NCBI GenBank assembly: GCA_030684575.1
Contig: JAUXVD010000003.1
Coordinates: forward strand, 124,001-188,000
Source of the DNA: Nitrospirota bacterium
GTDB lineage: Bacteria > Nitrospirota > Nitrospiria > Nitrospirales > Nitrospiraceae
Reading direction: 5' to 3'
Length of the DNA stretch: 64,000 nt
The translations under genes and the position numbers were made by a program. Of this stretch, positions 2,964 to 16,093 are shown one piece after another (position 1 is the stretch's first letter; each line of letters opens with the position of its first letter). The notes under the pieces were generated by a model. It made no database searches. It saw only the letters and a list, made by a program, of their open reading frames with translations, and was not told the origin of the DNA.

Positions 2964-4382
2964 ATGGAAAAAGAACATATTCTCGTAGTCGATGACGAAG
3001 AGGGCCTCCTGCATCTCGTGAAGATGCGGTTGACCGCCATGGGCTTTGCCGTGACCGGCTGCACCAGTGGGCGCGACGCGATCGCGTCAGCCAAGAGCAA
3101 CCGGTTCGACCTGGTCATCACCGACCTCCGCCTGGGTAACGAAGACGGGTTAGATGTGACGGAGGAATTGTTGCGAATGCAGCCAGGTCTTCCGGTCATC
3201 ATCCTGACGGCCCATGGCAGCATTCCCAATGCCGTGGAGGCGATGCAGCGCGGGGCCTTTGGCTATCTCACCAAGCCGTTCGATGATAAGGAGCTCAAGG
3301 CCAAGATCGAAGAGGGGCTTTCGCCGCAACGGATGCGAGGCGAAATCCAGCGCCTGAAGTCTCTCGTCAACGAGTTGTATGGCATGGAAAACATCGTCGC
3401 ACGGAGTCCTGCGATGCAGCGTTTGCTTCAACAAGTGGTGCAGGTGGCAGACTCCGATGCCACCATTCTTCTCTTTGGCGAAACGGGGACGGGGAAAGAA
3501 GTCTTCGCCCGCGTGATCCATTCGAACAGCCGACGGAATAAGGGGCCCTTCATTGCGCTCAATTGCGCGGCCATTCCGGAAGCGCTCTTCGAGTCAGAAC
3601 TCTTTGGACATGTACGTGGCGCCTTTACCAGTGCTCATGGCGCTAAGCGCGGCCTCTTTCAATGTGCCAACGGCGGGACGCTGTTTCTCGATGAGATCGG
3701 CGAGATGCCGCTGTCCATGCAGGTCAAGCTCTTGCGGGCGGTGCAGGAACGGGAAGTCCGCGAAGTGGGCTCTGAAACGACGACGAAGATCGATGTGCGG
3801 ATCATTGCCGCGACCAATAAAGACCTCGGCGAAGCGGTGAAGAATGGTTCATTCAGAAACGATCTTTTCTATCGTATTTCCGTCGTCCCGTTGTTTATCC
3901 CGCCGCTGCGTGACCGACGAGATGATATTCCCTTGTTGGCCCAACATTTCCTGACCGCGAGCGCCAAACGAGCCAATAAAGATTTGCGCGGGTTTACACC
4001 GGCCGCGCTCAATCGGCTGCTCACGCATCCCTGGCCCGGCAATGTCCGTGAGCTGGAGAACGTCATTGAAAAGGCCTCTGTGATGACGCGCCAGGACATG
4101 ATTACTCCGGACCTCTTGCCTTCGATGGGCAGCTCACCGGACGCGCCGCTGAAGCCACTGACCGAAGCCAAGGAAGAGTTCGAGAAGACCTATCTCAAGA
4201 ACGTCCTGCAACTGACCGGCGGCAATATCTCACGCGCCGCCCAATTTGCCGGTCGTTATCGGGCAGACTTTTACAAAATGCTGAAGAAATATGGCCTGCA
4301 TCCCTCGACCACGAAGGCGAAAGCGGAAGCCGACCTTGAAGATCTGGAAGAGGCAGGGGATCTCACGGAAGCCGAACGGTAG
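2964..4382 (+). CDS. glrR: Sigma54-dependent response regulator, GlrR/QseF-like
   Basis: This is a 472-residue NtrC-family activator. The start is ATG 2964, with GAAGGA upstream. The receiver domain (residues 4-118) has an acidic pocket DDEE, phosphoacceptor Asp54 and a conserved Lys in LTKPFDD. The AAA+ domain shows Walker A GETGTGKE, Walker B GGTLFLDEIGEM and arginine-finger region LRDRRDDIPLL. The C-terminal Fis-type helix-turn-helix (GGNISRAAQFAGRYRADFYKML) closely resembles that of E. coli GlrR. An oddity is the sigma54-contact loop, which reads GAFTSA instead of GAFTGA. It would act in the cytoplasm, hydrolysing ATP to open sigma54 promoters. Targets are unknown; it overlaps functionally with its two upstream partners. 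Confidence 0.9.
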   Translation: MEKEHILVVDDEEGLLHLVKMRLTAMGFAVTGCTSGRDAIASAKSNRFDLVITDLRLGNEDGLDVTEELLRMQPGLPVIILTAHGSIPNAVEAMQRGAFGYLTKPFDDKELKAKIEEGLSPQRMRGEIQRLKSLVNELYGMENIVARSPAMQRLLQQVVQVADSDATILLFGETGTGKEVFARVIHSNSRRNKGPFIALNCAAIPEALFESELFGHVRGAFTSAHGAKRGLFQCANGGTLFLDEIGEMPLSMQVKLLRAVQEREVREVGSETTTKIDVRIIAATNKDLGEAVKNGSFRNDLFYRISVVPLFIPPLRDRRDDIPLLAQHFLTASAKRANKDLRGFTPAALNRLLTHPWPGNVRELENVIEKASVMTRQDMITPDLLPSMGSSPDAPLKPLTEAKEEFEKTYLKNVLQLTGGNISRAAQFAGRYRADFYKMLKKYGLHPSTTKAKAEADLEDLEEAGDLTEAER

Positions 4383-4530
4383 GTCGATATTCCATGCGCT
4401 GAACGATTCGACGGAATCGAACCGTCCATGAGTCATCTTGCCTCGACAGCCGCGATACCGGCAACTCAGTTGTGAGTGGAATGGAGGGGGTCTGTCAGGT
4501 GGAACGCGATCGAGTCGTCGGCGGAATCTG

Positions 4531-4605
4531 TGGAGCTGGCGAGAGGAATTGAACCCCCAACCTGCGGTTTACAAAACCGCTGCTCTGCCATTGAGCTACG
4601 CCAGC
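4531..4605 (-). tRNA. tRNA-Thr (anticodon UGU)
   Basis: The minus strand reads as a complete cloverleaf. It has a 7-bp acceptor stem (GCTGGCG with CGCCAGC), a D-arm with GCTC/GAGC, an anticodon stem GCGGT/ACCGC around the loop TTTGTAA, a T-arm with loop TTCAATT, discriminator T and an encoded CCA end. Anticodon TGT corresponds to threonine. The gene stands alone between the two-component operon and a small minus-strand ORF; no integration scar or repeat of its 3' end is visible nearby. Confidence 0.95.
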
Positions 4606-4804
4606 CTGAATGTACCGGACCAAACACCAACCCCGACAGTCGTGAGCGAAAACCTAACAACTGCGTGAGCACCTGTCAAGCACAGGTGTGGTATGACGCT
4701 GTGATCTAGGTCACTCCAGCCATCGTAGAAGAATGACGGTCGACGTCATTGGCGTGCCTATTTTCATTGATGGTTTAGGCCGGGAGAGCCATTGCACGGT
4801 CCAA

Positions 4805-5062
4805 TTACAATGTCGCGCTTGGAGGGGGAGTGGCGTCGCCGGCTGGAATAGAATCGTGAGTTGCAATGGCTTCGTCGAGGACTCGGAGCGACTCGTTCAA
4901 GAGGTCTGTCGCACAACTGAGTGTGACGTGAATTTGTTGGAGTGCCTCCTCCCAGCGTCCTTCCTGCTGAAAGGTTTGAAAACGGCGATGATGATCTTCC
5001 ATGATCGCTTGCTTCGCATCCAGCATCAGGCTATCAACAGCTGTCACAGGTGCCCCCCCCAT
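4805..5062 (-). CDS. Small hypothetical helical protein
   Basis: This 85-codon ORF has a composition that looks like a soluble helical protein, with amphipathic segments such as QQEGRWEEALQQIHV and TDLLNESLRVLDEA. No motif or family is recognised. The ribosome-binding site is weak and the start could also be the internal ATG at residue 13. An opposing ORF (4733-5098, plus) covers the same bases but has poor composition (Cys- and Arg-rich), so I favour the minus strand. It could be a TPR-like or histidine-kinase-associated helical hairpin, but nothing here proves it. Confidence 0.42.
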   Translation of the reverse strand: MGGAPVTAVDSLMLDAKQAIMEDHHRRFQTFQQEGRWEEALQQIHVTLSCATDLLNESLRVLDEAIATHDSIPAGDATPPPSATL

Positions 5063-5155
5063 TCATGTGATGGAGACCGCACGGTAACAGACCTGTGATT
5101 CACACAACAATGATACGAACGGGTAGATAATGTTATGGTTAATCTACTGACCGTA

Positions 5156-5191
5156 AATACATGAAAATATGTATATATATTGTCATGTATT
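5156..5191. promoter_or_regulatory. Perfect 9-bp inverted repeat upstream of a small lipoprotein gene
   Basis: AATACATGA (5156-5164) and TCATGTATT (5183-5191) form a perfect inverted repeat with an 18-bp AT-rich spacer that contains TATATATA. The local sequence is strikingly AT-rich compared with its surroundings. The site is about 160 bp upstream of the lipoprotein start at 5349. It looks like a dimeric regulator site overlapping a promoter, but the regulator is unknown. Confidence 0.45.
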
Positions 5192-5348
5192 CACGGATAG
5201 TTCAGGGCTAACCTACTTCTATCCATGACCGACAGGCTTGCCCGCCAGGTCTTGCATCTGCTGAGATACAACGCGGCTCTCTGGCTTGACGATTCCTCGA
5301 TAACAGGTTTATCGTGCCTCGTATGATTCATTTATTGAGGAGGAGCTG

Positions 5349-5582
5349 ATGCGTAAGACGTCAACCTGGATCCTGGTCGCGGCAGGATTCCTACTCACTG
5401 CTTGCGCCTCAACCGAATGGGTTCACCCCAACAAACCTTCGTCAGAATACACCAACGATTACAATAAATGCGGGATAGCTGTATCTCGCGATCCCAAGCT
5501 CCAGCAGGGCAGTCAGCTCCTCGTCATCAACGCCACCGAACGCTGCATCCAAAAAGAAGGCTGGCGGTTGATCGAGAAATAG
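5349..5582 (+). CDS. Small lipoprotein of unknown function
   Basis: This 77-residue protein is preceded by a strong ribosome-binding site (GAGGAGGAG about 6 nt before ATG). The N-terminus is a classical lipoprotein signal: basic MRK, a hydrophobic core and lipobox LTAC at residues 16-19. The mature part is short, has two cysteines (in KCG and RCI) that could form a disulfide, and ends in a helical, positively charged tail. No enzymatic motif is seen. It is probably anchored in the inner or outer membrane facing the periplasm. The gene stands alone, followed by a long perfect hairpin at 5654-5691. Confidence 0.72.
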   Translation: MRKTSTWILVAAGFLLTACASTEWVHPNKPSSEYTNDYNKCGIAVSRDPKLQQGSQLLVINATERCIQKEGWRLIEK

Positions 5583-5653: not shown

Positions 5654-5691
5654 ACCATTACCACTCCGGCGTAAGCCGGAGTGGTAATGGT
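5654..5691. terminator. Perfect 17-bp hairpin, probable terminator
   Basis: A perfect inverted repeat with 17-bp arms (5654-5670 and 5675-5691) and a GTAA loop lies 72 bp after the lipoprotein stop. There is no run of T on either side, so if it terminates transcription it does so without a canonical U-tract. It could instead stabilise the 3' end of the mRNA. Confidence 0.6.
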
Positions 5692-5733: not shown

Positions 5734-5766
5734 GTTTACAGAGACGTTACGAGGAATTCACAGGAC
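5734..5766 (+). promoter_or_regulatory. Putative Pho box (three 11-bp repeats) before the psiE operon
   Basis: Three tandem 11-mers, GTTTACAGAGA, CGTTACGAGGA and ATTCACAGGAC, share TNAC(A/G) at the same phase. The same layout occurs in front of pstS (12438-12470) and the phosphate-porin operon (16061-16093), in each case oriented with the gene. Tandem 11-bp-pitch repeats are the known design of PhoB/PhoP/SphR sites, so this is read as a PhoB-type operator driving the genes from 5839. Confidence 0.6.
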
Positions 5767-5838: not shown

Positions 5839-6105
5839 ATGAAAAACACAGAAGCCTATTTGTTCGTGCTCACGATCTCTCTCTTGCTGGCCGTTCCGAT
5901 CGTTCGGGCCATTCAAACATTATTGGCCATGCATGCACGAGTCATCTTCCCTGTGCTTCGGATGCAGACAGGGCAGAGCTTCAGCACGTTGATGATGTCC
6001 GTCAGAAGCATGGAGGTGGTCGTCTGCCCCCACTGCGCCTCGTCCTTTGATCGCCCTGTCGACTCGCGCCATATCGCATGGACACAACCAAGGGAGGCCC
6101 TATGA
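5839..6105 (+). CDS. Small membrane-anchored protein, first gene of the psiE operon
   Basis: The start is chosen as ATG 5839 because GGAG lies 6 nt upstream; GTG 5797 or ATG 5800/5803 would add up to 14 residues with poorer ribosome-binding sites. The protein (88 residues) has one hydrophobic segment near residues 6-25, then a basic stretch and a CPHC motif at about residue 65, which could bind metal or form a disulfide. The stop overlaps the next start (ATGA), so it is translationally coupled to the CBS protein. No family is recognised. Its position behind a putative Pho box suggests a role under phosphate starvation, which is inference only. Confidence 0.55.
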   Translation: MKNTEAYLFVLTISLLLAVPIVRAIQTLLAMHARVIFPVLRMQTGQSFSTLMMSVRSMEVVVCPHCASSFDRPVDSRHIAWTQPREAL

Positions 6106-6485
6106 TCACCGTCGATCGGCTCATGACTCGCAAAATGGTTAATATCGAAGCAGGCACCTCGGCGATTGAGGCGGCGAAGCTCATGACCACTCACAAAATA
6201 GGAAGTCTGTTCGTGACAAAGCAAGGCCGCATCGTCGGCATCGTGACCGAGCCGGACATTGTCAGGAAAGTCGTCGGGGCTGAGCGGGTGCCCTATTACA
6301 TCCCCGTGGAAGAGATCATGAGCAGTCCGGTCATTGGCATTGACGGCCGCCGGTCCGTGACCGACGCCGCAGATCTCATGGAGCAGCATGGCACGCGTCA
6401 TTTAGCCGTGCTCAAGGACGCGTCGATCGTGGGGATATTATCGGTGCGCGATCTACTCCATCCCGTTTCAATAGATGAGTTTTAA
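6102..6485 (+). CDS. CBS-domain pair protein
   Basis: This 127-residue protein consists almost entirely of two CBS motifs (about residues 5-60 and 68-123), forming one Bateman module that normally binds adenosyl nucleotides such as ATP, AMP or SAM. Typical signatures are visible: LMTRKMVNIEAGTSAIEAA, GRIVGIVTEPDIVRKV, IMSSPVIGIDGRRSVTDAA and IVGILSVRDLL. ATG 6102 has AGGGAGG upstream and overlaps the preceding stop. No catalytic domain is attached, so it is probably a stand-alone energy or nucleotide sensor acting on a partner. It lies in an apparent operon with PsiE. Confidence 0.85.
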   Translation: MITVDRLMTRKMVNIEAGTSAIEAAKLMTTHKIGSLFVTKQGRIVGIVTEPDIVRKVVGAERVPYYIPVEEIMSSPVIGIDGRRSVTDAADLMEQHGTRHLAVLKDASIVGILSVRDLLHPVSIDEF

Positions 6486-6525
6486 GCGTTCGCAGTTCCG
6501 GTCAGAAGGAAGGGGGAGTTACGAC

Positions 6526-6651
6526 ATGCCACTGGATCTCTTCACCCCACTCTTTGCAATGGGCATGCGCTGTGCGCTCGTCCTCGGTTTTATGCTCTTC
6601 ATCATTGCGCTCGGACGGGATGCCTGGAACGGTTTCGCCAAACACGAATAG
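6526..6651 (+). CDS. 41-residue single-span membrane peptide
   Basis: This short ORF has a strong ribosome-binding site (GGAAGGGGGAG, spacer about 6 nt) and fits neatly between the CBS gene and psiE (gaps of 40 and 4 bp). The product has one predicted membrane helix (about residues 8-29, from LFAMGMR to LFIIALG) and a short polar tail (GRDAWNGFAKHE). Its small size would hide it from normal gene callers. Its position in the same transcript as PsiE suggests a small accessory membrane subunit; no family is recognised. Confidence 0.6.
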   Translation: MPLDLFTPLFAMGMRCALVLGFMLFIIALGRDAWNGFAKHE

Positions 6652-6655
6652 GACT

Positions 6656-7180
6656 ATGACGCAAACCACCATGGAACAGACTCTGGACACAACCTGGCCT
6701 CGACGGTTCGTCACGACCTTGACGGCCTATGACATGACACGAGTTTGGGAAGCCGGCACGCGATTCATCCTGAGCCTGCTCACCCTGACGATTCTTCTTG
6801 GTCTCGCAGGCGGCGTGGTGAAAACGTTTCTCGACTTGCGGCTTCTCCTGACCGCCGATCTTGAGGTCGCGCTCCGGCATATTATTGTCGATGCACTCAC
6901 GTTACTCGCCGTTGTGGAAGTGTTGCGAACCACGCTGACCTACTGCTCAGACGGACGAGTGCGCGTCACTTTTATCGTGGACACCGTGCTTGTCGTCATG
7001 CTGACGGAGATCATCTCTCGATGGTTTACAGGCGGGGAATGGCATCAATTCGCGATATTAGGCGGCATCGTCATCACCTTGGGGCTCATGCGTATTGTGG
7101 CGATCCAATACAGCCCGTCGCCAACGGGCGGTACGCAGCAGACCGGTCAATCAGGGCCATCATGTTCACAATCTCACTAG
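6656..7180 (+). CDS. PsiE-like phosphate-starvation-inducible membrane protein
   Basis: Start ATG 6656 lies 4 nt after the previous stop; the longer open frame from 6554 overlaps the small peptide gene and is unlikely. The 174-residue product has four hydrophobic helices (about residues 28-53, 69-90, 98-118 and 128-146). The arrangement, and the stretch from LRHIIVDALTLLAVVEVLRTT through RWFTGG, fits the PsiE family (Pfam PsiE). E. coli psiE is induced by phosphate starvation through PhoB, but its biochemical role is unknown. A putative Pho box upstream of the operon agrees with that regulation. The C-terminal tail is polar, Gln- and Ser-rich. Confidence 0.75.
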   Translation: MTQTTMEQTLDTTWPRRFVTTLTAYDMTRVWEAGTRFILSLLTLTILLGLAGGVVKTFLDLRLLLTADLEVALRHIIVDALTLLAVVEVLRTTLTYCSDGRVRVTFIVDTVLVVMLTEIISRWFTGGEWHQFAILGGIVITLGLMRIVAIQYSPSPTGGTQQTGQSGPSCSQSH

Positions 7181-7189
7181 GAGGTGCCT

Positions 7190-7456
7190 ATGTCGATCAG
7201 TGTTCTTCTTGAAGCAGATCTTGCCATCCATCCGCTGCGCGGAGCGCGGCACGATGCCGATGCGCTCACGGCAACCATTCTCGACCATCTGAGTGAGCAG
7301 ACCGTGATCAGTCTGGACACGCTCATCTGTCTCATGCCTGAATATACCTGGAATCAAATCTTCCACTGCGTCGACCAACTCGCCAGATGTAACAGGGTCG
7401 TCCTGCGCCGACACCGATTCGTCTACACGCTCTTCTCGACAGACTTCTTGGCCTAG
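7190..7456 (+). CDS. Small winged-helix-like protein
   Basis: This 88-residue protein starts at ATG 7190, directly behind AGGAGG, 9 nt after psiE. The sequence AILDHL-type helix, ISLDTLICLMPEYTWNQIFHCVDQLARCNRVVLRRHRF reads like a compact winged helix: two helices, a recognition-like helix with Trp-Asn-Gln, and a basic wing. It may therefore bind DNA, perhaps as a local regulator, but this is inferred from pattern only. It closes the operon that began at 5839. The next 196 bp to the phoU stop hold no gene I can support. Confidence 0.6.
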   Translation: MSISVLLEADLAIHPLRGARHDADALTATILDHLSEQTVISLDTLICLMPEYTWNQIFHCVDQLARCNRVVLRRHRFVYTLFSTDFLA

Positions 7457-7652: not shown

Positions 7653-8345
7653 TTACTGCTGTGAGAGGCCGTTGGTGGAAGGTGCTGGTGGGGTGGTGTG
7701 GCGAATAATTTTCCCTTCGACGAGATAGACCACCAGTTCAGCGATATTGGTGGCATGGTCGGCCATCCGTTCAAGGTATTTGGCGATGAAGCTCAAGCGA
7801 ATGGCACGTGACGTCGTGTGAGGATTTTCGAGCATGAACGACAGCAGTTCACGGAATAGTTGCTCCATGAGATCGTCGACGAAGTCATCGTCCGTCAGCA
7901 CTTTCCGAGCGAGGGTGGCATCGTCCTTCACGAACGCATCGATACTTTCTTTCACCATCGTTCGCGCCCACCGTGCCATACGCGGGATGTCGATATAGGG
8001 CTTCAGTTGCGGCTCTTCGTTCAGCTCGATCGCACGCTCGCAGACATTTTCTGCCAGGTCGCTGATGCGCTCGAGTTCGGTGGCGATTTTCATCGCGGTG
8101 GTGATCAGCCGCAAGTCTCGCGCGGCAGGCTGATGCAGGGCCAGCAGGCGAATGCAATCTTCGTCGATCTCCACATCCAAGGCGTTGACCTGGTGGTCCC
8201 GCTCGATCACCTGTCTGGCCAGGGCTGAGTCGCGGTTCACCAATGCGGTGAGCGCCTTATCGATCTGATCTTCGGCCAGACCGGCCATGCGCAGGAGCTT
8301 GGTTTTCAACTCGACGAGTTCTTCGTCAAAATGGCGTTGTCTCAT
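7653..8345 (-). CDS. phoU: Phosphate transport regulator PhoU
   Basis: This 230-residue helical protein has two PhoU repeats. The first carries the signature ERISDLAENVCERAIEL (about residues 87-103) and the second YLERMADHATNIAELVVYL (about residues 188-206); these bind metal clusters and contact the sensor kinase and the Pst transporter. The start is ATG 8345; a TTG at 8354 overlaps pstB and is less likely. PhoU dampens phosphate uptake and PhoB signalling when phosphate is sufficient. It is the last gene of the pst operon, abutting pstB. Confidence 0.93.
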   Translation of the reverse strand: MRQRHFDEELVELKTKLLRMAGLAEDQIDKALTALVNRDSALARQVIERDHQVNALDVEIDEDCIRLLALHQPAARDLRLITTAMKIATELERISDLAENVCERAIELNEEPQLKPYIDIPRMARWARTMVKESIDAFVKDDATLARKVLTDDDFVDDLMEQLFRELLSFMLENPHTTSRAIRLSFIAKYLERMADHATNIAELVVYLVEGKIIRHTTPPAPSTNGLSQQ

Positions 8346-8350
8346 AGGGT

Positions 8351-9151
8351 TCAACCAAATCGTCCGGTGATGTAGTCCTCGGTCTGTTTTTGGGAAGGTG
8401 TCGTAAAGAGCTGTTTGGTGAGGCCAAACTCCACCAATTCGCCGAGGTACATGAAGGCCGTCCAGTCGGACACCCGAGCCGCCTGCTGCATATTGTGTGT
8501 CACGATCAGGATTGTCACACGACGTTTTAAGTCGAGCAACAATTCTTCAATGCTGGCCGTCGCGATCGGATCGAGCGCCGACGTCGGCTCATCCAACAAC
8601 AACAGTTCGGGATCGGTCGCCAACGCTCGGGCGATACAGAGCCGTTGCTGCTGGCCGCCGGAGAGCGAGGTCGCCCGAGCCGTCAATCGGTCCTTCACCT
8701 CTTCCCACAGGGCGGCGTTTCGCAGGGCCTGTTCGACCTTTTCATCCAAGAGCTGCCGTTCACTGGTCCCTCGTACTCTTAATCCGTAGGCGACGTTGTC
8801 ATAAATGGACTTGGGAAAGGGGTTCGGCTTTTGAAAGACCATGGCGATCCGCATCCGCACTTCGATCGGATCGACCTCGCGCGCGAGAATATTGCGTTGA
8901 TCCGGGTACAGGAGAATTTCACCTTCATAACGGTTTCCCGCATAGAGGTCGTGCATCCGATTAAAGCAGCGGAGAAAGGTGGATTTCCCGCAGCCAGATG
9001 GCCCGATCAAGGCCGTGATCTGATATTCGGCGATGGGGAGCGACAGGTTCTTCAGCGCCAAGCGGTTTCCATAGGAGAAACTGAGGGCACGGGTCTCCGC
9101 CTTGAGGGGTGTGGGCCATTCCTGAGGGTACGTCGAGTCGGCGACATCCAT
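8351..9151 (-). CDS. pstB: Phosphate ABC transporter ATP-binding protein PstB
   Basis: This 266-residue cytoplasmic ATPase powers high-affinity phosphate import. All ABC motifs are present: Walker [11 protein letters not shown]-loop [16 protein letters not shown], signature LSGGQQQR, Walker [14 protein letters not shown] and the switch His in VTHNM. The VFQKPNPFP stretch is diagnostic of PstB. The ATG lies 1 nt after the pstA stop, so the two are translated together. Length is normal for the family (about 260). Confidence 0.96.
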
Positions 9152-9152
9152 G

Positions 9153-10076
9153 TTACCAGCTCACCTGCTTTCGCATTCGGTATCGCAAGTAGATCGCCAG
9201 GCCGTTCATTGTCAAGGTCATCCCGACCAACAGCACCCCGGCTGCTGCGGCGTTGCCGGCGAAGTCCTCGCCTGGCCTCGACACCCACCCGAACATTTGA
9301 ATGGGCATGATCGTAAAGGGAGAAAAGAGCCAGTCGAAGGAGATATATGGCGGTTGTGTCGTGAACGGAGCCGGAGGCAGAAAGGCAATAAACGTCAGAG
9401 CACCGATGGTGACGATGGGGGCGGTCTCACCGATAGCCCGGCTCAACGCCAGGATAATGCCCGTCAGGATGCCGGCCGCCGAATAGGGGAGGACGTGATG
9501 CGAGACCGTCTGCCATTTGGTGGCGCCCAATCCATAAGCCGCCTCCCGGATCTCGACCGGGATTGCGCGAATCGCTTCACGCGTGGTGACGATGACGACC
9601 GGCAGAATCAAGAGTGCCAACGTGAGGCCGGCTACCAGGATACTTTCGCCCAGTCCCAGGATGTAGACGAACAACCCGAGCGCCAGCAAGCCATAAATGA
9701 TCGAGGGTACGCCGGCCAGGTTCGTGACCGTGACCTCGATCAATTCGGTCATCCATGTCTTCCGTGCGTACTCCTCCAAGTAGATGGCGGCTGCAACGCC
9801 TAACGGGATGCCCACGACCGCCGTGACCAGCATGATCAAGGTCGAGCCGACCCAGGCCGGTAGAATGCCGGCTTGCGCGGCGTGACGAGAGGGAAATGAC
9901 ATGAGGAACTGCCAGTCGATCTGACGGGCACCTTGGTACAGCAGCGCCCCGAATAAGAGGGCGAGGGTTCCGACTGCGATGGTTAATGAGCCAAGTCCCA
10001 CGATTTTGAATAGGGCCTCGGCAAACTTGCGCCGTGCGATGGAAGGGGACGAATGGGACAGCGACTGTGTCGACAT
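9153..10076 (-). CDS. pstA: Phosphate ABC transporter permease PstA
   Basis: This 307-residue inner-membrane permease has six hydrophobic segments. The cytoplasmic coupling loop ([29 protein letters not shown] region, about residues 190-215) carries the EAA motif that docks onto PstB. The pair [10 protein letters not shown] and YEEYA-type segments match PstA. The start ATG overlaps the pstC stop by one base (TGATG). With PstC it forms the membrane channel for phosphate released by PstS. Confidence 0.94.
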
Positions 10077-11035
10077 CAGTAGACCTCCCGAAATCGCTTC
10101 CGCAGAACATGTCCGAGAATGTTGAAGGCAAAGGTCATCACGGCCAGCACGAGTCCGGCGGCAAAAATACTCTGATAGCCAATGCTGCCGTGGGGAAGAT
10201 CGCCGAGCGCCACTTGCACGATGTAGGCGGTAATGGTCGCGGCCGGCTCCAGGGGGTTCCAGGTTAAATTCGGATTCTGCCCCGCTGCGATCGCCACGAC
10301 CATGGTTTCGCCGACCGCTCGCGAAATTCCGAGGACATAGGCGGCCACGAGGCCGGAGGTTGCCGCCGGCACGACGACACGCCAGGCAGTCTGGAGTCGA
10401 GTCGCGCCGATCGCGTAGGAGCCTTCCCGCAGCACCATCGGTACGGCGCGCATCGCATCCTCGCTGAGCGAGATCACGAAGGGCATGATCATAATCCCGA
10501 TGACGATACCGGGACCGAGCATGTTAAATCCCGGGAGGTCTGGCCAGAGTCGTTGAAGCGCCGGGGTCACGACGAGCAACGCAAAGTACCCGTACACGAC
10601 GGTCGGAACGGCACCCAGAAGCTCTAGCGCGGGCTTCATGATTTCCCGTACACGCGACGAGGAAAATTCAGAAAGATAGATGGCTGCCACCGTTCCGAGT
10701 GGAATGGCCACGAGTAACCCAACCGCACTGGTGACGAGGGTACCGGCCAGCAGTGGCAAGATCCCATAGTGAGGATTGGCAAAGAGGGGGGTCCAGAGTG
10801 TATCGGTAAAAAAGTCCGTAAGCGGGACCGTTTTGAAAAACCCGATCGATTCAGACAACAGCACCGCGATAATCATCACCGTCGCCGCAACGGATGTCAG
10901 AGCGGCAAGAAAGAGCCCGCCCTCGATCACTCGCTCGCGTCGCTGGCGCGCATGGCGACGGGCAGCCGCTTCCTCGAAGGCATTCGGCTTACTGATATGC
11001 ATCGCCTCCTGCTCTGCCATGCTGGATGTGTTCAT
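10076..11035 (-). CDS. pstC: Phosphate ABC transporter permease PstC
   Basis: This 319-residue permease starts at ATG 11035 (MNTSSMAEQ); the open frame extends further upstream, but that part runs into the repeat element and has no PstC character. The N-terminus is polar and Arg-rich (RRHARQRRER), followed by six hydrophobic helices. The EAA-like loop is AMRAVPMVLREGSYAIGATRLQ. The motif SRAVGETM pairs with the equivalent in PstA. A 268-bp gap with a 123-bp palindromic repeat separates it from pstS. GAGG lies rather far upstream of the start, so the exact start is uncertain by a few codons. Confidence 0.93.
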   Translation of the reverse strand: MNTSSMAEQEAMHISKPNAFEEAAARRHARQRRERVIEGGLFLAALTSVAATVMIIAVLLSESIGFFKTVPLTDFFTDTLWTPLFANPHYGILPLLAGTLVTSAVGLLVAIPLGTVAAIYLSEFSSSRVREIMKPALELLGAVPTVVYGYFALLVVTPALQRLWPDLPGFNMLGPGIVIGIMIMPFVISLSEDAMRAVPMVLREGSYAIGATRLQTAWRVVVPAATSGLVAAYVLGISRAVGETMVVAIAAGQNPNLTWNPLEPAATITAYIVQVALGDLPHGSIGYQSIFAAGLVLAVMTFAFNILGHVLRKRFREVY

Positions 11036-11059
11036 CAGTAGACTGCGCCTTTCCTCTAG

Positions 11060-11182
11060 CAGGATGCTGAAAAAGTCCGCCAGCGGCGTTCTCGCTTCAC
11101 GAAGAGGCTCAACGTACCACAAGGGTACGACTCGCCTCTTCGCTCGCTGCGGCCTTGCTGGACGGCCTTTTTGAGCATCCTG
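11060..11182. repeat. Palindromic repeat element, copy A
   Basis: This 123-bp element has imperfect terminal inverted repeats of about 20 bp (CAGGATGCTGAAAAAGTCCG versus the complement of its other end, CAGGATGCTCAAAAAGGCCG). Inside are nested stems: GAAGAGGC (11101-11108) pairs with GCCTCTTC (11134-11141), and CGTACC (11113-11118) with GGTACG (11124-11129). The whole element could fold into one long hairpin. A related copy lies at 63239-63358 in the opposite orientation. This copy sits between pstS and pstC, so it is probably transcribed with the pst mRNA. Confidence 0.8.
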
Positions 11183-11303
11183 TGGATGTTCTGACCGCGG
11201 TGCCACTCCGAGTATTTTGGCCGTTATTTCGCATGCACCGAGGTTTTCCGCAGCCTGCTAGAGAGAACCTCAAGCCAGAGCCTGCACGAACACCTCATGA
11301 GCG

Positions 11304-12314
11304 CTACCGTTTCGGAGGACGGCTCATGATTGCTTCAACCGCCAGTCCTACTTCAGGCACACCACCGAAACCGGTACCCAGTACACCTTGTTTGAAGCGC
11401 TCACGGGCCATGCCATAGGCTGGTTCCGGTAAAGGGATATAGCGGACTTCTGCGATCAGCTTCGGCCCTTCCGTCAGGTAATACTCCACGAAGTCTTTGA
11501 CCTCTTGGCGCTTTGCCGCCGCCTCACTGACGTAAATGAAGAGGGGCCTCGATAGAGGCTGATAACTGCCCTTGATGACGTTTTCAGCACTAGGCAGCAC
11601 CGGGCCATTTTTACCGACAATAGCGACCGCTTTTAGCTTCTTCATCTGAGCGGCATAATAGGCAAAGGGGATATAGCCCAGCGCGTTCTTGTTATTCTCG
11701 ATCCCCTGCACGAGCACGTTATCGTCTTCACTGGCGGTGTAATCGCCTCGGCTGGCTTTAGCCTTTCCCACGATGGCATCGGTAAAGTAATCGAAGGTGC
11801 CGGAATCGGAGCCGGCGCCAAAGAGCACAATTGGGGCATCCGGCCAGTCGGAATGGATCTGGTTCCATTTGGTAATTTTACTCTGGGCTGCCGGTTCCCA
11901 GATTGTCTTCAGCTCTTCGACCGTCATGGACGTAATCCAGGTGTTTTTCGGACTCACCGCCACCGTCAAGGCATCGAAGGCGATGGGCAGTTCGTAATAG
12001 GCAATGCCGTTCTTCCGGCAGAGGTCCATTTCTTCTTTGAGGATCGGCCGGGAGGCATCCGCAATGTCCGTCTCACCCCGGCAGAACTTCTTGAATCCAC
12101 CGCCTGTGCCGGCGATGCCCACGGTCACTCTGATGCGGCCCCGGTTCGCTTTCTGAAATTCTTCCGCCACCGCCTCCGTGAGGGGATAGACCGTGCTCGA
12201 TCCGTCGACTTTGATGAGAGCTGTTGGGGTGCCCTGTGCCAGAGGAGTCCCTGAGTCGAAGACTCCGAGAAACCCGGCCATCGCCATACAGGATACCAAC
12301 CGGACAACTAGCAT
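11304..12314 (-). CDS. pstS: Periplasmic phosphate-binding protein PstS
   Basis: ATG 12314 is chosen because GAGGAG lies 6 nt upstream; longer frames up to 12407 have no such site. The 336-residue product has a signal peptide (cleavage probably after PLAQG, about residue 28). The mature protein shows the PBP type II phosphate-binding pattern: DGSSTVYPL near the N-terminus, [21 protein letters not shown] and [12 protein letters not shown], all typical ligand loops. It captures phosphate in the periplasm and delivers it to PstCA. It is first in the pst operon, preceded by a putative Pho box. Confidence 0.94.
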
Positions 12315-12437
12315 GCGCGCTCCTCTCATCCTCAATGAATCTGTCTGCCTCTCATGGCCCTGTGACACACCATCTTGACGCAGCTCTAGTGCAGGCCGTT
12401 TCTTCATGGATCCTGAGGCTACAGCATGTCCATTCCG

Positions 12438-12470
12438 GTACTGTCACAGATGTGTAAGTCTTTTGTTAAC
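12438..12470 (-). promoter_or_regulatory. Putative Pho box (three 11-bp repeats) before pstS
   Basis: On the minus strand the site reads GTTAACAAAAG, ACTTACACATC, TGTGACAGTAC in tandem, each with TNACA at the same phase. It ends 123 nt before the pstS start and after the stop of the upstream lipoprotein gene, so pstS probably has its own phosphate-controlled promoter. The regulator is expected to be PhoB-like; no phoB is in the window. Confidence 0.65.
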
Positions 12471-13306: not shown

Positions 13307-14428
13307 TCAGCGCACGTCGTTTTGTGCCGTCACTAGACTGTGCCCCAAAATTTCAAAATTCTTGGAGATCTGCGCGGCGGTCAACGGATAAAGACTCGCT
13401 CGGGCCACGGTCTCCTGCCCTTGGCGGCTATTCACAAACTTCACAAACTCCCATACCACGGGATCGAGTTTTTCTTTCTGATTTTTGTTCACATAGAGAT
13501 AGAGCGGTCTGGCCAGTGGGTATTGTCCATTGGCCACGCTCTCAGCGCTGGGTAGGACCGCCGCCCCATCGGCCTCATTTGTAAGGGGGATAATTCTGAC
13601 CATGGAACCTTGGAATCCTACGCCGGCATAGCCGACTGCGAGAGGGTCTTGAGCGATGGCGAGAATCTCCGATGCCGACCCAGGTTGCTCCTGCACGTCG
13701 TCACGGAGCTCCCCATCTATCAATGCCACATGCTTAAAGAATTCGCGGGTCCCGGACTTTTTGTTTCGTCCATACAGGTGAATGGGCTGTTGGCTCCATT
13801 GATCTTTAAGTCCCACCTGGCCCCAGGTTGTGAGGCGTCCTCCCTTGCTTCGCTTCAAGCTGGAGCTAAAGAGGCCGTCGACTTGTTCGAGTGTGAGGTG
13901 TTCGATTGGGTTGTCGTTGTGCACATAAATAGCAACGGCATCCATCGCGATCGGAATGCCGATTGGTTCGTACCCATGATGGCTGACAAACCCCTTTCGT
14001 TCTTGGTCGGTCAGCGGACGTGACGAAGCCAATAAATCGGAACTACTGGCACCTTGTGTGCCTTTGCCGCCTGACTTGTCCCCGCGGTGCTGGAGGGAAA
14101 GGCCCAGCATGAATTCGCGTATGGCCTCGCTGGATCCCTGCCCCTCGACACCGAATTTCGTGTTGGGTTGAAACGATCTGAACGCGGCGGCGAGCTTCGC
14201 CATGAGGGGCTGCATCGTATCAGACCCGACAATGGTGACTCGACCGCTGATGCCTTGAGCAGGCTGGTATTGTTCTGCGATCGAGTCATTGCCTGATTGG
14301 ACTAAGATATTGGCCTGTTCTGCAGTAGCCTTCTCGTCCCACAGGCACCAGGAAGTGAGAGCGAGTACAAGGGCAAGACATTGTGCTGGACGGACAGAGC
14401 AGATCCGCTGTTGTACATTATGTGTCAT
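13307..14428 (-). CDS. Second PstS-family phosphate-binding protein
   Basis: Three ATG codons in a row (14434, 14431, 14428) follow AAGGA; the last has the best spacing and gives 373 residues. A signal peptide covers about the first 35 residues. The mature region has PBP-like loops: TIVGSDTMQPLM, VEGQGSSEAIREF, LLASSRPLTDQE and YGRNKKSGTREFF. These match the ligand loops of PstS, including the Ser/Thr and Arg positions. It differs clearly from the pstS product at 11304 and has an unusual Gly/Ser-rich insert near residue 120. It lies directly after a phosphate-type porin gene, so a periplasmic capture role for that porin is likely. Confidence 0.85.
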   Translation of the reverse strand: MTHNVQQRICSVRPAQCLALVLALTSWCLWDEKATAEQANILVQSGNDSIAEQYQPAQGISGRVTIVGSDTMQPLMAKLAAAFRSFQPNTKFGVEGQGSSEAIREFMLGLSLQHRGDKSGGKGTQGASSSDLLASSRPLTDQERKGFVSHHGYEPIGIPIAMDAVAIYVHNDNPIEHLTLEQVDGLFSSSLKRSKGGRLTTWGQVGLKDQWSQQPIHLYGRNKKSGTREFFKHVALIDGELRDDVQEQPGSASEILAIAQDPLAVGYAGVGFQGSMVRIIPLTNEADGAAVLPSAESVANGQYPLARPLYLYVNKNQKEKLDPVVWEFVKFVNSRQGQETVARASLYPLTAAQISKNFEILGHSLVTAQNDVR

Positions 14429-14463
14429 CATCATTTCCTTTCTTCTCGAGTAAGACGGTTCTT

Positions 14464-15975
14464 CTAATTAAAGAAGAATTGGGCCTGGAATCGCAACAGG
14501 GAGGCATCAAATTGATCCTGCACCTGATTGCGCACCAGAGTCTCGTTGAGTCCGTCCTTCAACATGAGTTCAGTGACAAACCTCCAGTGAGTATCCGGTT
14601 CCCAGACTAGACCGAAGTTCCAGGTTCGCGATTGGCCATCTGGTGCACCGCTGATCGATTTGATCCCACCATAATATTCACCGAAGCGCACATAGGGCGT
14701 GAGCTGGCCGACATCCGAGTATTGCCAGGTATAGTACCCCTGCACATAACCGCCTCGAAGCGACGACTCTTCAATGGTGTTATTGCTCGCGTTCCGCTTC
14801 GCATTACGTCCAATCGTGCCCTCGGCAAGTAGTCCCCAGGGTTGCGGTGGCGTCCAGAGGTAGGCCGTGAGGCGCTGATCGTTGACGTCGCAGCCGCCTT
14901 CCTTATTCAAGGCGTCGTAACACTTCGCCGCCGAACTGGTGCTGGTGGGGGATCCGGCGCCGGTGACTGAGTAGATCCCGCGAAAGGCCATCACGCCGGT
15001 TTCCAGGAGTCGCCCGTTCGGCAACTCAAACGGATAGGCCAATCGTACGCCGACATGCTTGTCGCCGTTCAATTCCGCCTTGTTGCGGCCTTGGCCATTG
15101 TAAACCATGACGCCGAAGACGCCATAATCGCCCGGTCCGTTGTGATAAGCCGCTAATTGGGAAAACCGATCTTGGGCGATTTTGGGGCTCCAATAATAGG
15201 CTATGCCGAGGTCTCGTTCCCCCGGCGCCCCGCTTTGAACCGATTCGTGCCGGTCGAGTTCTTGCCGATTAGTGCTTGATCGGTAGGTATCGAAGGAGTT
15301 TGGCGCTCTGTGTAGGCCGAATCGAAGCCGGTTAACCTTGTCTTTTGTCAGGTAGTAGTCGCCGTACGCATCAATAATTTCCTTATTGAACATATTTTGT
15401 GTTCCTTGATCGCCTTCGAAGGCGCCCTGAAGGAAGAAGGCGAGCCGTTCTGAAACCTGCCCTTGGAACACGAGGCGGATGCGCCGCATGTAGAATTCAC
15501 GTGGCTGGTGGGTCGCATTGCTATCGCCTAGAGGGATGCTCATCTTGCCGTCGGTGGGTCCGGCAGAGATACGAAACTGGGTGTACCCGCTGATCCGGAT
15601 GCGCTCATACCAGCGGGGATTGCCAGCCATCTGCATCTCCGGCGTCTGCTCGAAGACGCGGCGTTCTTCTTCCGCTTTCAGGCGAATCCAATCATCCTGG
15701 GTGATGAGTCCCTTTTCCAATAGGAGACTTTCGAGATTGGTGCTTTCTATGGTGAGGCGCTGACCGACACTTGCCCGTTGGCTTGGGTCGGCAACAGGAG
15801 TGGCGGTCAAACCAGATTGAGGACCGATGATGTCTGGTTCTGCCGCAACTGCGGCCAGGGTGCTGTTAATGCCCAAGGTGAGAACCAGGCACAGGACAAA
15901 GGCTCGTAGTAAAATTACACGTAAAAACGTCGTGCTCTCATCTTTCGATTGTTGCGGAAGTGGCCAGATCTGCAC
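14464..15975 (-). CDS. Phosphate/polyphosphate-selective-type outer-membrane porin
   Basis: GTG 15975 has AAGGGGGG upstream with a good spacer. The 503-residue product has an N-terminal signal peptide (about residues 1-45). A short coiled-coil-like segment near residues 75-110 (LESLLLEKGLITQDDWIRLKAEEERR) then precedes a long beta-barrel with alternating hydrophobic residues, ending in FQAQFFFN with a terminal aromatic-rich strand. This build, including the early helical segment, fits the OprO/OprP family (Pfam Porin_O_P). It would pass phosphate or other anions across the outer membrane. It heads an operon with a PstS-like protein and a lipoprotein, behind a putative Pho box. Confidence 0.8.
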   Translation of the reverse strand: MQIWPLPQQSKDESTTFLRVILLRAFVLCLVLTLGINSTLAAVAAEPDIIGPQSGLTATPVADPSQRASVGQRLTIESTNLESLLLEKGLITQDDWIRLKAEEERRVFEQTPEMQMAGNPRWYERIRISGYTQFRISAGPTDGKMSIPLGDSNATHQPREFYMRRIRLVFQGQVSERLAFFLQGAFEGDQGTQNMFNKEIIDAYGDYYLTKDKVNRLRFGLHRAPNSFDTYRSSTNRQELDRHESVQSGAPGERDLGIAYYWSPKIAQDRFSQLAAYHNGPGDYGVFGVMVYNGQGRNKAELNGDKHVGVRLAYPFELPNGRLLETGVMAFRGIYSVTGAGSPTSTSSAAKCYDALNKEGGCDVNDQRLTAYLWTPPQPWGLLAEGTIGRNAKRNASNNTIEESSLRGGYVQGYYTWQYSDVGQLTPYVRFGEYYGGIKSISGAPDGQSRTWNFGLVWEPDTHWRFVTELMLKDGLNETLVRNQVQDQFDASLLRFQAQFFFN

Positions 15976-16060: not shown

Positions 16061-16093
16061 AATCCGTAACGGCGCTGTTACAGAATTGTTAAA
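16061..16093 (-). promoter_or_regulatory. Putative Pho box (three 11-bp repeats) before the porin operon
   Basis: The minus strand reads TTTAACAATTC, TGTAACAGCGC, CGTTACGGATT in tandem, each with TNAC(A/G) in phase. It ends 85 nt before the porin start codon. It has the same phase, pitch and orientation as the sites before pstS and the psiE operon. Confidence 0.65.

Follow-up and report, generated by a model that had tools for sequence, protein, structure and literature searches.

A predicted Pho-regulon operon of the Nitrospiraceae with a CBS protein, PsiE and a winged-helix protein as its probable core

Five small genes clustered around psiE in a member of the Nitrospiraceae raise a simple question: do they form one phosphate-controlled unit, and if so, what might that unit do? 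The Nitrospiraceae are major nitrite oxidizers, and we know of no activity for PsiE. Our literature search found no described Pho regulon for Nitrospirota, no report linking Nitrospira psiE to phosphate starvation, and none that brings together CBS domains, the Pho regulon and phosphate starvation. The locus lies in a 64-kb window, the whole stretch of DNA analyzed here, from a 3.8-Mb Nitrospiraceae genome. Its closest relatives with a name belong to Nitrospira, among them N. lenta, which carries the locus too. The reading that we favor, with a probability of roughly 0.55 for the proposal as a whole, including the mechanism set out below, is that the locus is a Pho-regulon operon with the CBS protein, PsiE and the winged-helix protein as its working core.

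The five genes are all on the plus strand. The first, orf1 (5839–6105; open reading frame list and hydropathy), encodes an 88-residue protein with one N-terminal transmembrane segment and a CPHC motif near its C-terminus, and is followed by the gene for a 127-residue stand-alone CBS pair (orf2, 6102–6485; Pfam CBS, 1.6e-24), the gene for a 41-residue peptide with a single transmembrane segment (orf3, 6526–6651), psiE, which encodes a four-transmembrane protein of the PsiE family (orf4, 6656–7180; PF06146, 3.8e-8), and the gene for an 88-residue stand-alone winged-helix protein, recognized from an AlphaFold model and fold comparison (orf5, 7190–7456). From orf1 to orf5 the intergenic gaps are −4, +40, +4 and +9 nt, and a Shine-Dalgarno-like sequence precedes every start: GGAG for orf1, AGGGAGG for the CBS gene, AAGGGGGAG for orf3, AGGA (weak) for psiE and AGGAGG for the winged-helix gene. 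The products of orf1, orf3 and orf5 have no family match in a Pfam search. Comparison with genus relatives indicates purifying selection on all five genes, with dN/dS values of 0.02–0.13 for CBS, 0.08–0.18 for psiE, 0.14–0.29 for the winged helix, 0.10–0.44 for orf3 and 0.10–0.58 for orf1; since all are below 1, the 41- and 88-residue open reading frames are real genes. The run of five tightly spaced genes reported in a preliminary description of this DNA is therefore borne out, with every gene present on the plus strand, under selection and separated by −4 to +40 nt, whereas the ATGA coupling described along with it exists at the orf1/CBS junction and not at the others. A phage origin of the small open reading frames was rejected, as none has a match in PHROGs.

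Upstream of orf1, at 5735–5762 on the plus strand, is a triple direct repeat with an 11-bp period, TTTACA-N5-GTTACG-N5-TTCACA, which was recovered by footprinting, matrix and pattern search alike. When the upstream regions of 11 genus relatives are aligned, the repeat is conserved in all 11, with the consensus TTTACA-N5-KTWACR-N5-TTSACR and at a distance of 104–110 bp from orf1. A matrix built from these genus sites ranks 5735–5762 as the top site of the 64-kb window; second and third are the promoters of pstS (12442–12469, minus) and of the adjacent porin-pst operon (16065–16092, minus), both also found by pattern search. These two promoters were left out of matrix training, and they score 15.8 and 15.5 bits, against a maximum of 10.4 bits in shuffled windows. 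A pattern search of the 3.8-Mb genome allowing one mismatch returned five sites and a reversed control none; three of the five are the operon, pstS (C3:136442) and the OprP-like porin/pst operon (C3:140065). The other two, C3:346860 and C3:371122, are upstream of genes for a 547-residue membrane protein and a 549-residue protein, respectively. PHO boxes are 11-nt direct repeats whose sequence varies by species (PMC4415409), and the present element shares with them its 11-bp period and its occurrence at pstS and porin promoters. It differs in being a predicted PhoB site composed of three repeats of a TTWACA hexamer, where E. coli has CTGTCAT. The Pho box originally proposed thus stands as a conserved element of 11 promoters shared with pst genes, but not as a box of the CTGTCAT type; searching with that E. 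coli-type box gave no site above the window background.

The neighborhood is itself a phosphate locus. Convergent with orf5, and on the minus strand, are phoU (7653–8354; PF01895, 2.1e-50), pstB, pstA and pstC (8351–11206; pstC named from its position and permease domain), pstS (11304–12407; PBP_like_2, 3.5e-36), a lipoprotein gene, and genes for a second PstS-like protein and a phosphate-selective porin O/P (13307–15975; PF12849, 1.2e-30, and PF07396, 3.2e-23). In other genomes the neighbors of psiE are pstS, ppx, ppk2, sixA, or a regulator with a receiver domain that best matches PhoB.

The box follows the genes through their rearrangements. It stands ahead of orf1 where a genus genome has the complete set of five, 60–120 bp ahead of psiE in the genus clade without orf1 to orf3, and ahead of CBS, or of psiE directly, in other genera; where CBS or the winged-helix gene is apart from psiE, it usually has a Pho box of its own. 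To track the first gene present in this way is what an operon promoter would do. Of 64 loci, 50 have a box scoring at least 14 in the 1 kb ahead of psiE, against 15 of 1280 shuffled sequences. In this comparison the general matrix was a manual one, drawn up once the genus sites had been seen, same-genus loci that are not mutually independent are counted, and some boxes in one genus face a divergent pstS. The single-operon proposal had been made to depend on conserved gene order and on the absence of separate starts within the cluster; the order is conserved, and the predicted box precedes whichever gene comes first. Together these comparisons support the view that the locus is one Pho-controlled operon with a conserved gene order, and from sequence the case for Pho control of orf1-CBS-orf3-psiE-wHTH (wHTH denoting the winged-helix gene) together with the adjacent porin-pst genes is strong.

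How much of the operon is a functional unit is a different matter. We found psiE in 66 of 98 Nitrospiraceae genomes and examined 65 neighborhoods. The full five-gene order occurs in eight genus genomes (that of the window and L066–L072); L075 has it as well, but its CBS protein aligns from residue 11 only. G047 carries the upstream lipoprotein gene described below, orf1, CBS and orf3 in order to the contig end, with a box ahead of orf1, and in L073 and L074 CBS is lost and orf1 truncated, with the rest kept. Outside the genus, the operon order extends to other genera, with losses. An orf5 homologue lies downstream of psiE on the same strand in 61 of the 65 loci, representing about a dozen genera with rearranged flanks, and in 56 of those 61 its domain begins no more than 950 bp from the psiE start; one of the four loci without it stops at a contig border. 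In about 20 loci CBS is the gene just ahead of psiE, overlapping it in several genera, and at the remaining loci it is either farther off in the same region or missing; in one large genus it is about 6–7 kb from psiE and has a box some 123 bp ahead of it. Two genomes have the CBS-orf5 pair without psiE, with box-like sites at both genes. One lineage has lost psiE or, in L064, a large part of it, while keeping orf5 (L064, L204–L206) at the ppx-ppk2-sixA site, in two cases with a box ahead of orf5. Since psiE can be lost while the winged-helix gene and the Pho box persist, the winged-helix protein would seem to be more than an accessory of PsiE.

The two remaining genes fare differently. Relatives of orf1 in other genera (L084–L087) are without CPHC, and in another genus the position of orf3 is occupied by an unrelated 39-residue transmembrane peptide; judged from these alignments, orf1 and orf3 are clade-specific and not core. 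CPHC was considered as a redox or zinc site and set aside as not central, the motif being absent from the other-genus relatives. The picture of five genes as a fixed unit, with which this analysis began, accordingly gives way to a wider core of CBS, PsiE and winged helix, three genes that seem, from their distribution, each to belong to the Pho regulon independently and often to share an operon. That they are separable yet often linked supports a common task, but is also compatible with mere co-regulation.

The PsiE protein passes the Pfam cut-off for PF06146 (34.0 bits versus 23.9; residues 37–148 on profile positions 5–116 of 122) and, like the rest of that family, is predicted to have four transmembrane helices, seen as four windows in hydropathy analysis and as four long helices in an AlphaFold model of low confidence. 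Built from 21 sequences, that model has a pLDDT of 63 and a pTM of 0.28, too poor for an activity to be read from the fold, and a sequence search found no solved structure. Alignments place the protein in a divergent subfamily, distinguished from the family that includes E. coli psiE by its operon partners and by an invariant GRVxVTFIVDTxL segment, to which an E-x7-Y-x3-G pattern is added. Formerly counted in the Pho regulon, E. coli psiE showed neither PhoB binding nor PhoB regulation in ChIP-seq and expression (RNA-seq) data published in 2023 (PMC10294691). This weakens the premise, taken over from the preliminary description, that the E. coli gene is PhoB-induced, and it makes the analogy a weak one; in Nitrospira, where the gene has a conserved Pho box, the Pho conclusion still holds. 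Close relatives of the subfamily are found in Leptospirillum and in candidate-phyla bacteria. Proteins of Levyibacteriota and Roizmanbacteria (L185, L186, L187) are 45–56 percent identical to it, a similarity that suggests gene transfer. The genome also has a second PF06146 gene (L166, C20:59500–69500; 4739–5281, plus), with no winged-helix or pst neighbor.

The CBS protein belongs with the Bateman-type modules, in that Pfam and alignment identify two CBS domains with the (S/T)xxD nucleotide motif. Motifs of this type contact the nucleotide ribose in CBS pairs. Here they appear as GIVTExD and SVRD and are invariant in all 36 homologues encoded near psiE, with single positions differing in a few. 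Such ribose-binding-type motifs are compatible with the idea of a CBS sensor, and we infer that the protein may sense adenylates. What sets it apart from other stand-alone CBS-pair proteins is its predicted control by a Pho box and its linkage to psiE or ppk1. The copy next to ppk1, a second CBS gene in the same genome (L224, C3:361500–366500; 1854–2249, minus), is directly downstream of that gene, encodes a protein 64 percent identical to the first, and has a weak Pho-like box.

For orf5 the original term "winged-helix-like" proved apt: the AlphaFold model is a winged helix with a core pLDDT of about 85, and it superimposes on solved winged-helix structures with an rmsd of 1.4–2 Å. A sequence search found no solved structure for it, and neither Pfam nor NCBIfam places it in a named regulator family. 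The family has seven copies in this genome and 2–11 in nearly all Nitrospiraceae sampled, and is rare elsewhere in the phylum. Two small winged-helix proteins invite comparison, and orf5 matches neither FeoC nor DsrD in Pfam. FeoC, from the feoABC operon, is likewise small, consists of a winged helix alone and shares its operon with a membrane protein (PMC5519574); it is iron-linked where orf5 is Pho-linked, and no Fe-S cysteine motif was seen in orf5. DsrD, an allosteric activator of sulfite reductase (PMC11406059), has the same size and fold as orf5 (Z 10.2–10.3, rmsd 1.7–1.9 over 64–66 aa), and an orf5 paralogue overlaps the gene for the siroheme nitrite reductase NirA; many unrelated winged helices, however, reach an equal Z. 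Homology was rejected at an hhalign probability of about 0.1 percent, with one of the two DsrD queries taken from a Nitrospirota dsr locus. The paralogue in question (L164, C1:41000–50000; 4172–4390, minus) shares 4 nt with nirA and has a nitrite transporter gene on its other side, in an operon that also includes cyanase; further paralogues are found beside response regulators or universal-stress genes.

We propose that under phosphate starvation a PhoB-type regulator would bind the triple 11-bp repeat at 5735–5762 and switch on orf1-CBS-orf3-psiE-wHTH jointly with the adjacent porin-pst genes. PsiE would most likely be a four-helix inner-membrane protein with a part in phosphate or polyphosphate homeostasis, and the CBS protein may report adenylate state to PsiE. 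The winged-helix protein could serve as the soluble effector, as a transcription factor acting locally or as a partner protein of the FeoC or DsrD kind; orf1 and orf3 would be lineage-specific single-transmembrane accessories. Functional cooperation of the three core proteins is what we infer from their linkage; what is said here of adenylate gating and of PsiE activity is speculative. A still more specific version is a Pho-induced membrane device in which the adenylate-sensing CBS protein and the winged helix, acting by protein contact, gate a PsiE that transports phosphate, polyphosphate or a counter-ion, or senses one of them. The winged-helix family would then be a set of operon-resident partners in the Nitrospiraceae, of which another copy serves nitrite reductase. 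DsrD acts by contact and FeoC is thought to, and we regard this version as a long shot.

A real contender, to which we would still not give even odds, is that the winged-helix protein binds DNA locally, repressing or modulating Pho promoters and so exerting feedback on the operon and pst, with PsiE and CBS independent of it. Its fold is in general nearest to MarR/ArsR-like regulators (the fold neighbors include many unrelated winged helices, and no function was inferred from them), paralogues lie next to response regulators or belong to a nitrogen-assimilation operon, and the gene retains a Pho box when it is alone. Yet the core is near neutral, with a median pI of 6.1, and recognition helix and wing together have a median net charge of +1.5, so plain DNA binding is not favored; moreover, the protein has no sensor or dimerization domain, and no operator sequence other than the Pho box was identified. 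A DsrD-like role as a partner protein seems as open as DNA binding.

Only slightly less likely is that CBS, PsiE and the winged helix are separate Pho-regulon genes that share the operon only by way of its promoter and do not cooperate. This would explain why CBS and the winged-helix gene can each be found apart from psiE behind a Pho-like box of its own, why the rest of the operon survives the loss of CBS in L073 and L074, and why several genomes without psiE keep the winged-helix gene. It sits less easily with a winged-helix gene that has stayed downstream of psiE in 61 of 65 loci, across about a dozen genera, even though the flanks have been rearranged, with the overlap of CBS and psiE in several genera, and with a CBS-wHTH pair that persists even without psiE. 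Least probable to our minds is a stress-resistance membrane operon, in which PsiE would be a general envelope-stress protein, as its enterobacterial heat-resistance-locus relatives may be, and CBS and the winged helix would have no regulatory role. The annotation of one heat-resistance locus includes a PsiE-family gene (PMC5347186), and some winged-helix paralogues lie within universal-stress clusters, but the psiE-linked copies are tied to pst, ppk or ppx and to Pho boxes.

In the Nitrospiraceae PsiE has a conserved Pho box, a fixed neighbor in the winged helix and a frequent one in CBS, and such constant partners, together with a starvation condition, make its role testable. The comparisons also provide a usable Pho-box motif (TTWACA-N5, three times) for Nitrospirota and point to an uncharacterized winged-helix family expanded in the Nitrospiraceae.

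Several features upstream of the operon deserve mention. A gene for a 77-residue lipoprotein (5349–5582, plus; dN/dS 0.10–0.21) is a syntenic neighbor whose homologues occupy this position in 15 loci; it is probably a separate transcription unit, and its product has a conserved C-terminus, NATERCxQxEGW. Farther out are a small uncharacterized open reading frame (4805–5062, minus), conserved just upstream in 17 loci, and a tRNA-Thr(tgt) gene (4531–4605, minus). Between the lipoprotein gene and the operon is a near-perfect long inverted repeat (5654–5691) with the core CTCCGGCGTAAGCCGGAG, which occurs once in the window and is partly conserved in close relatives.
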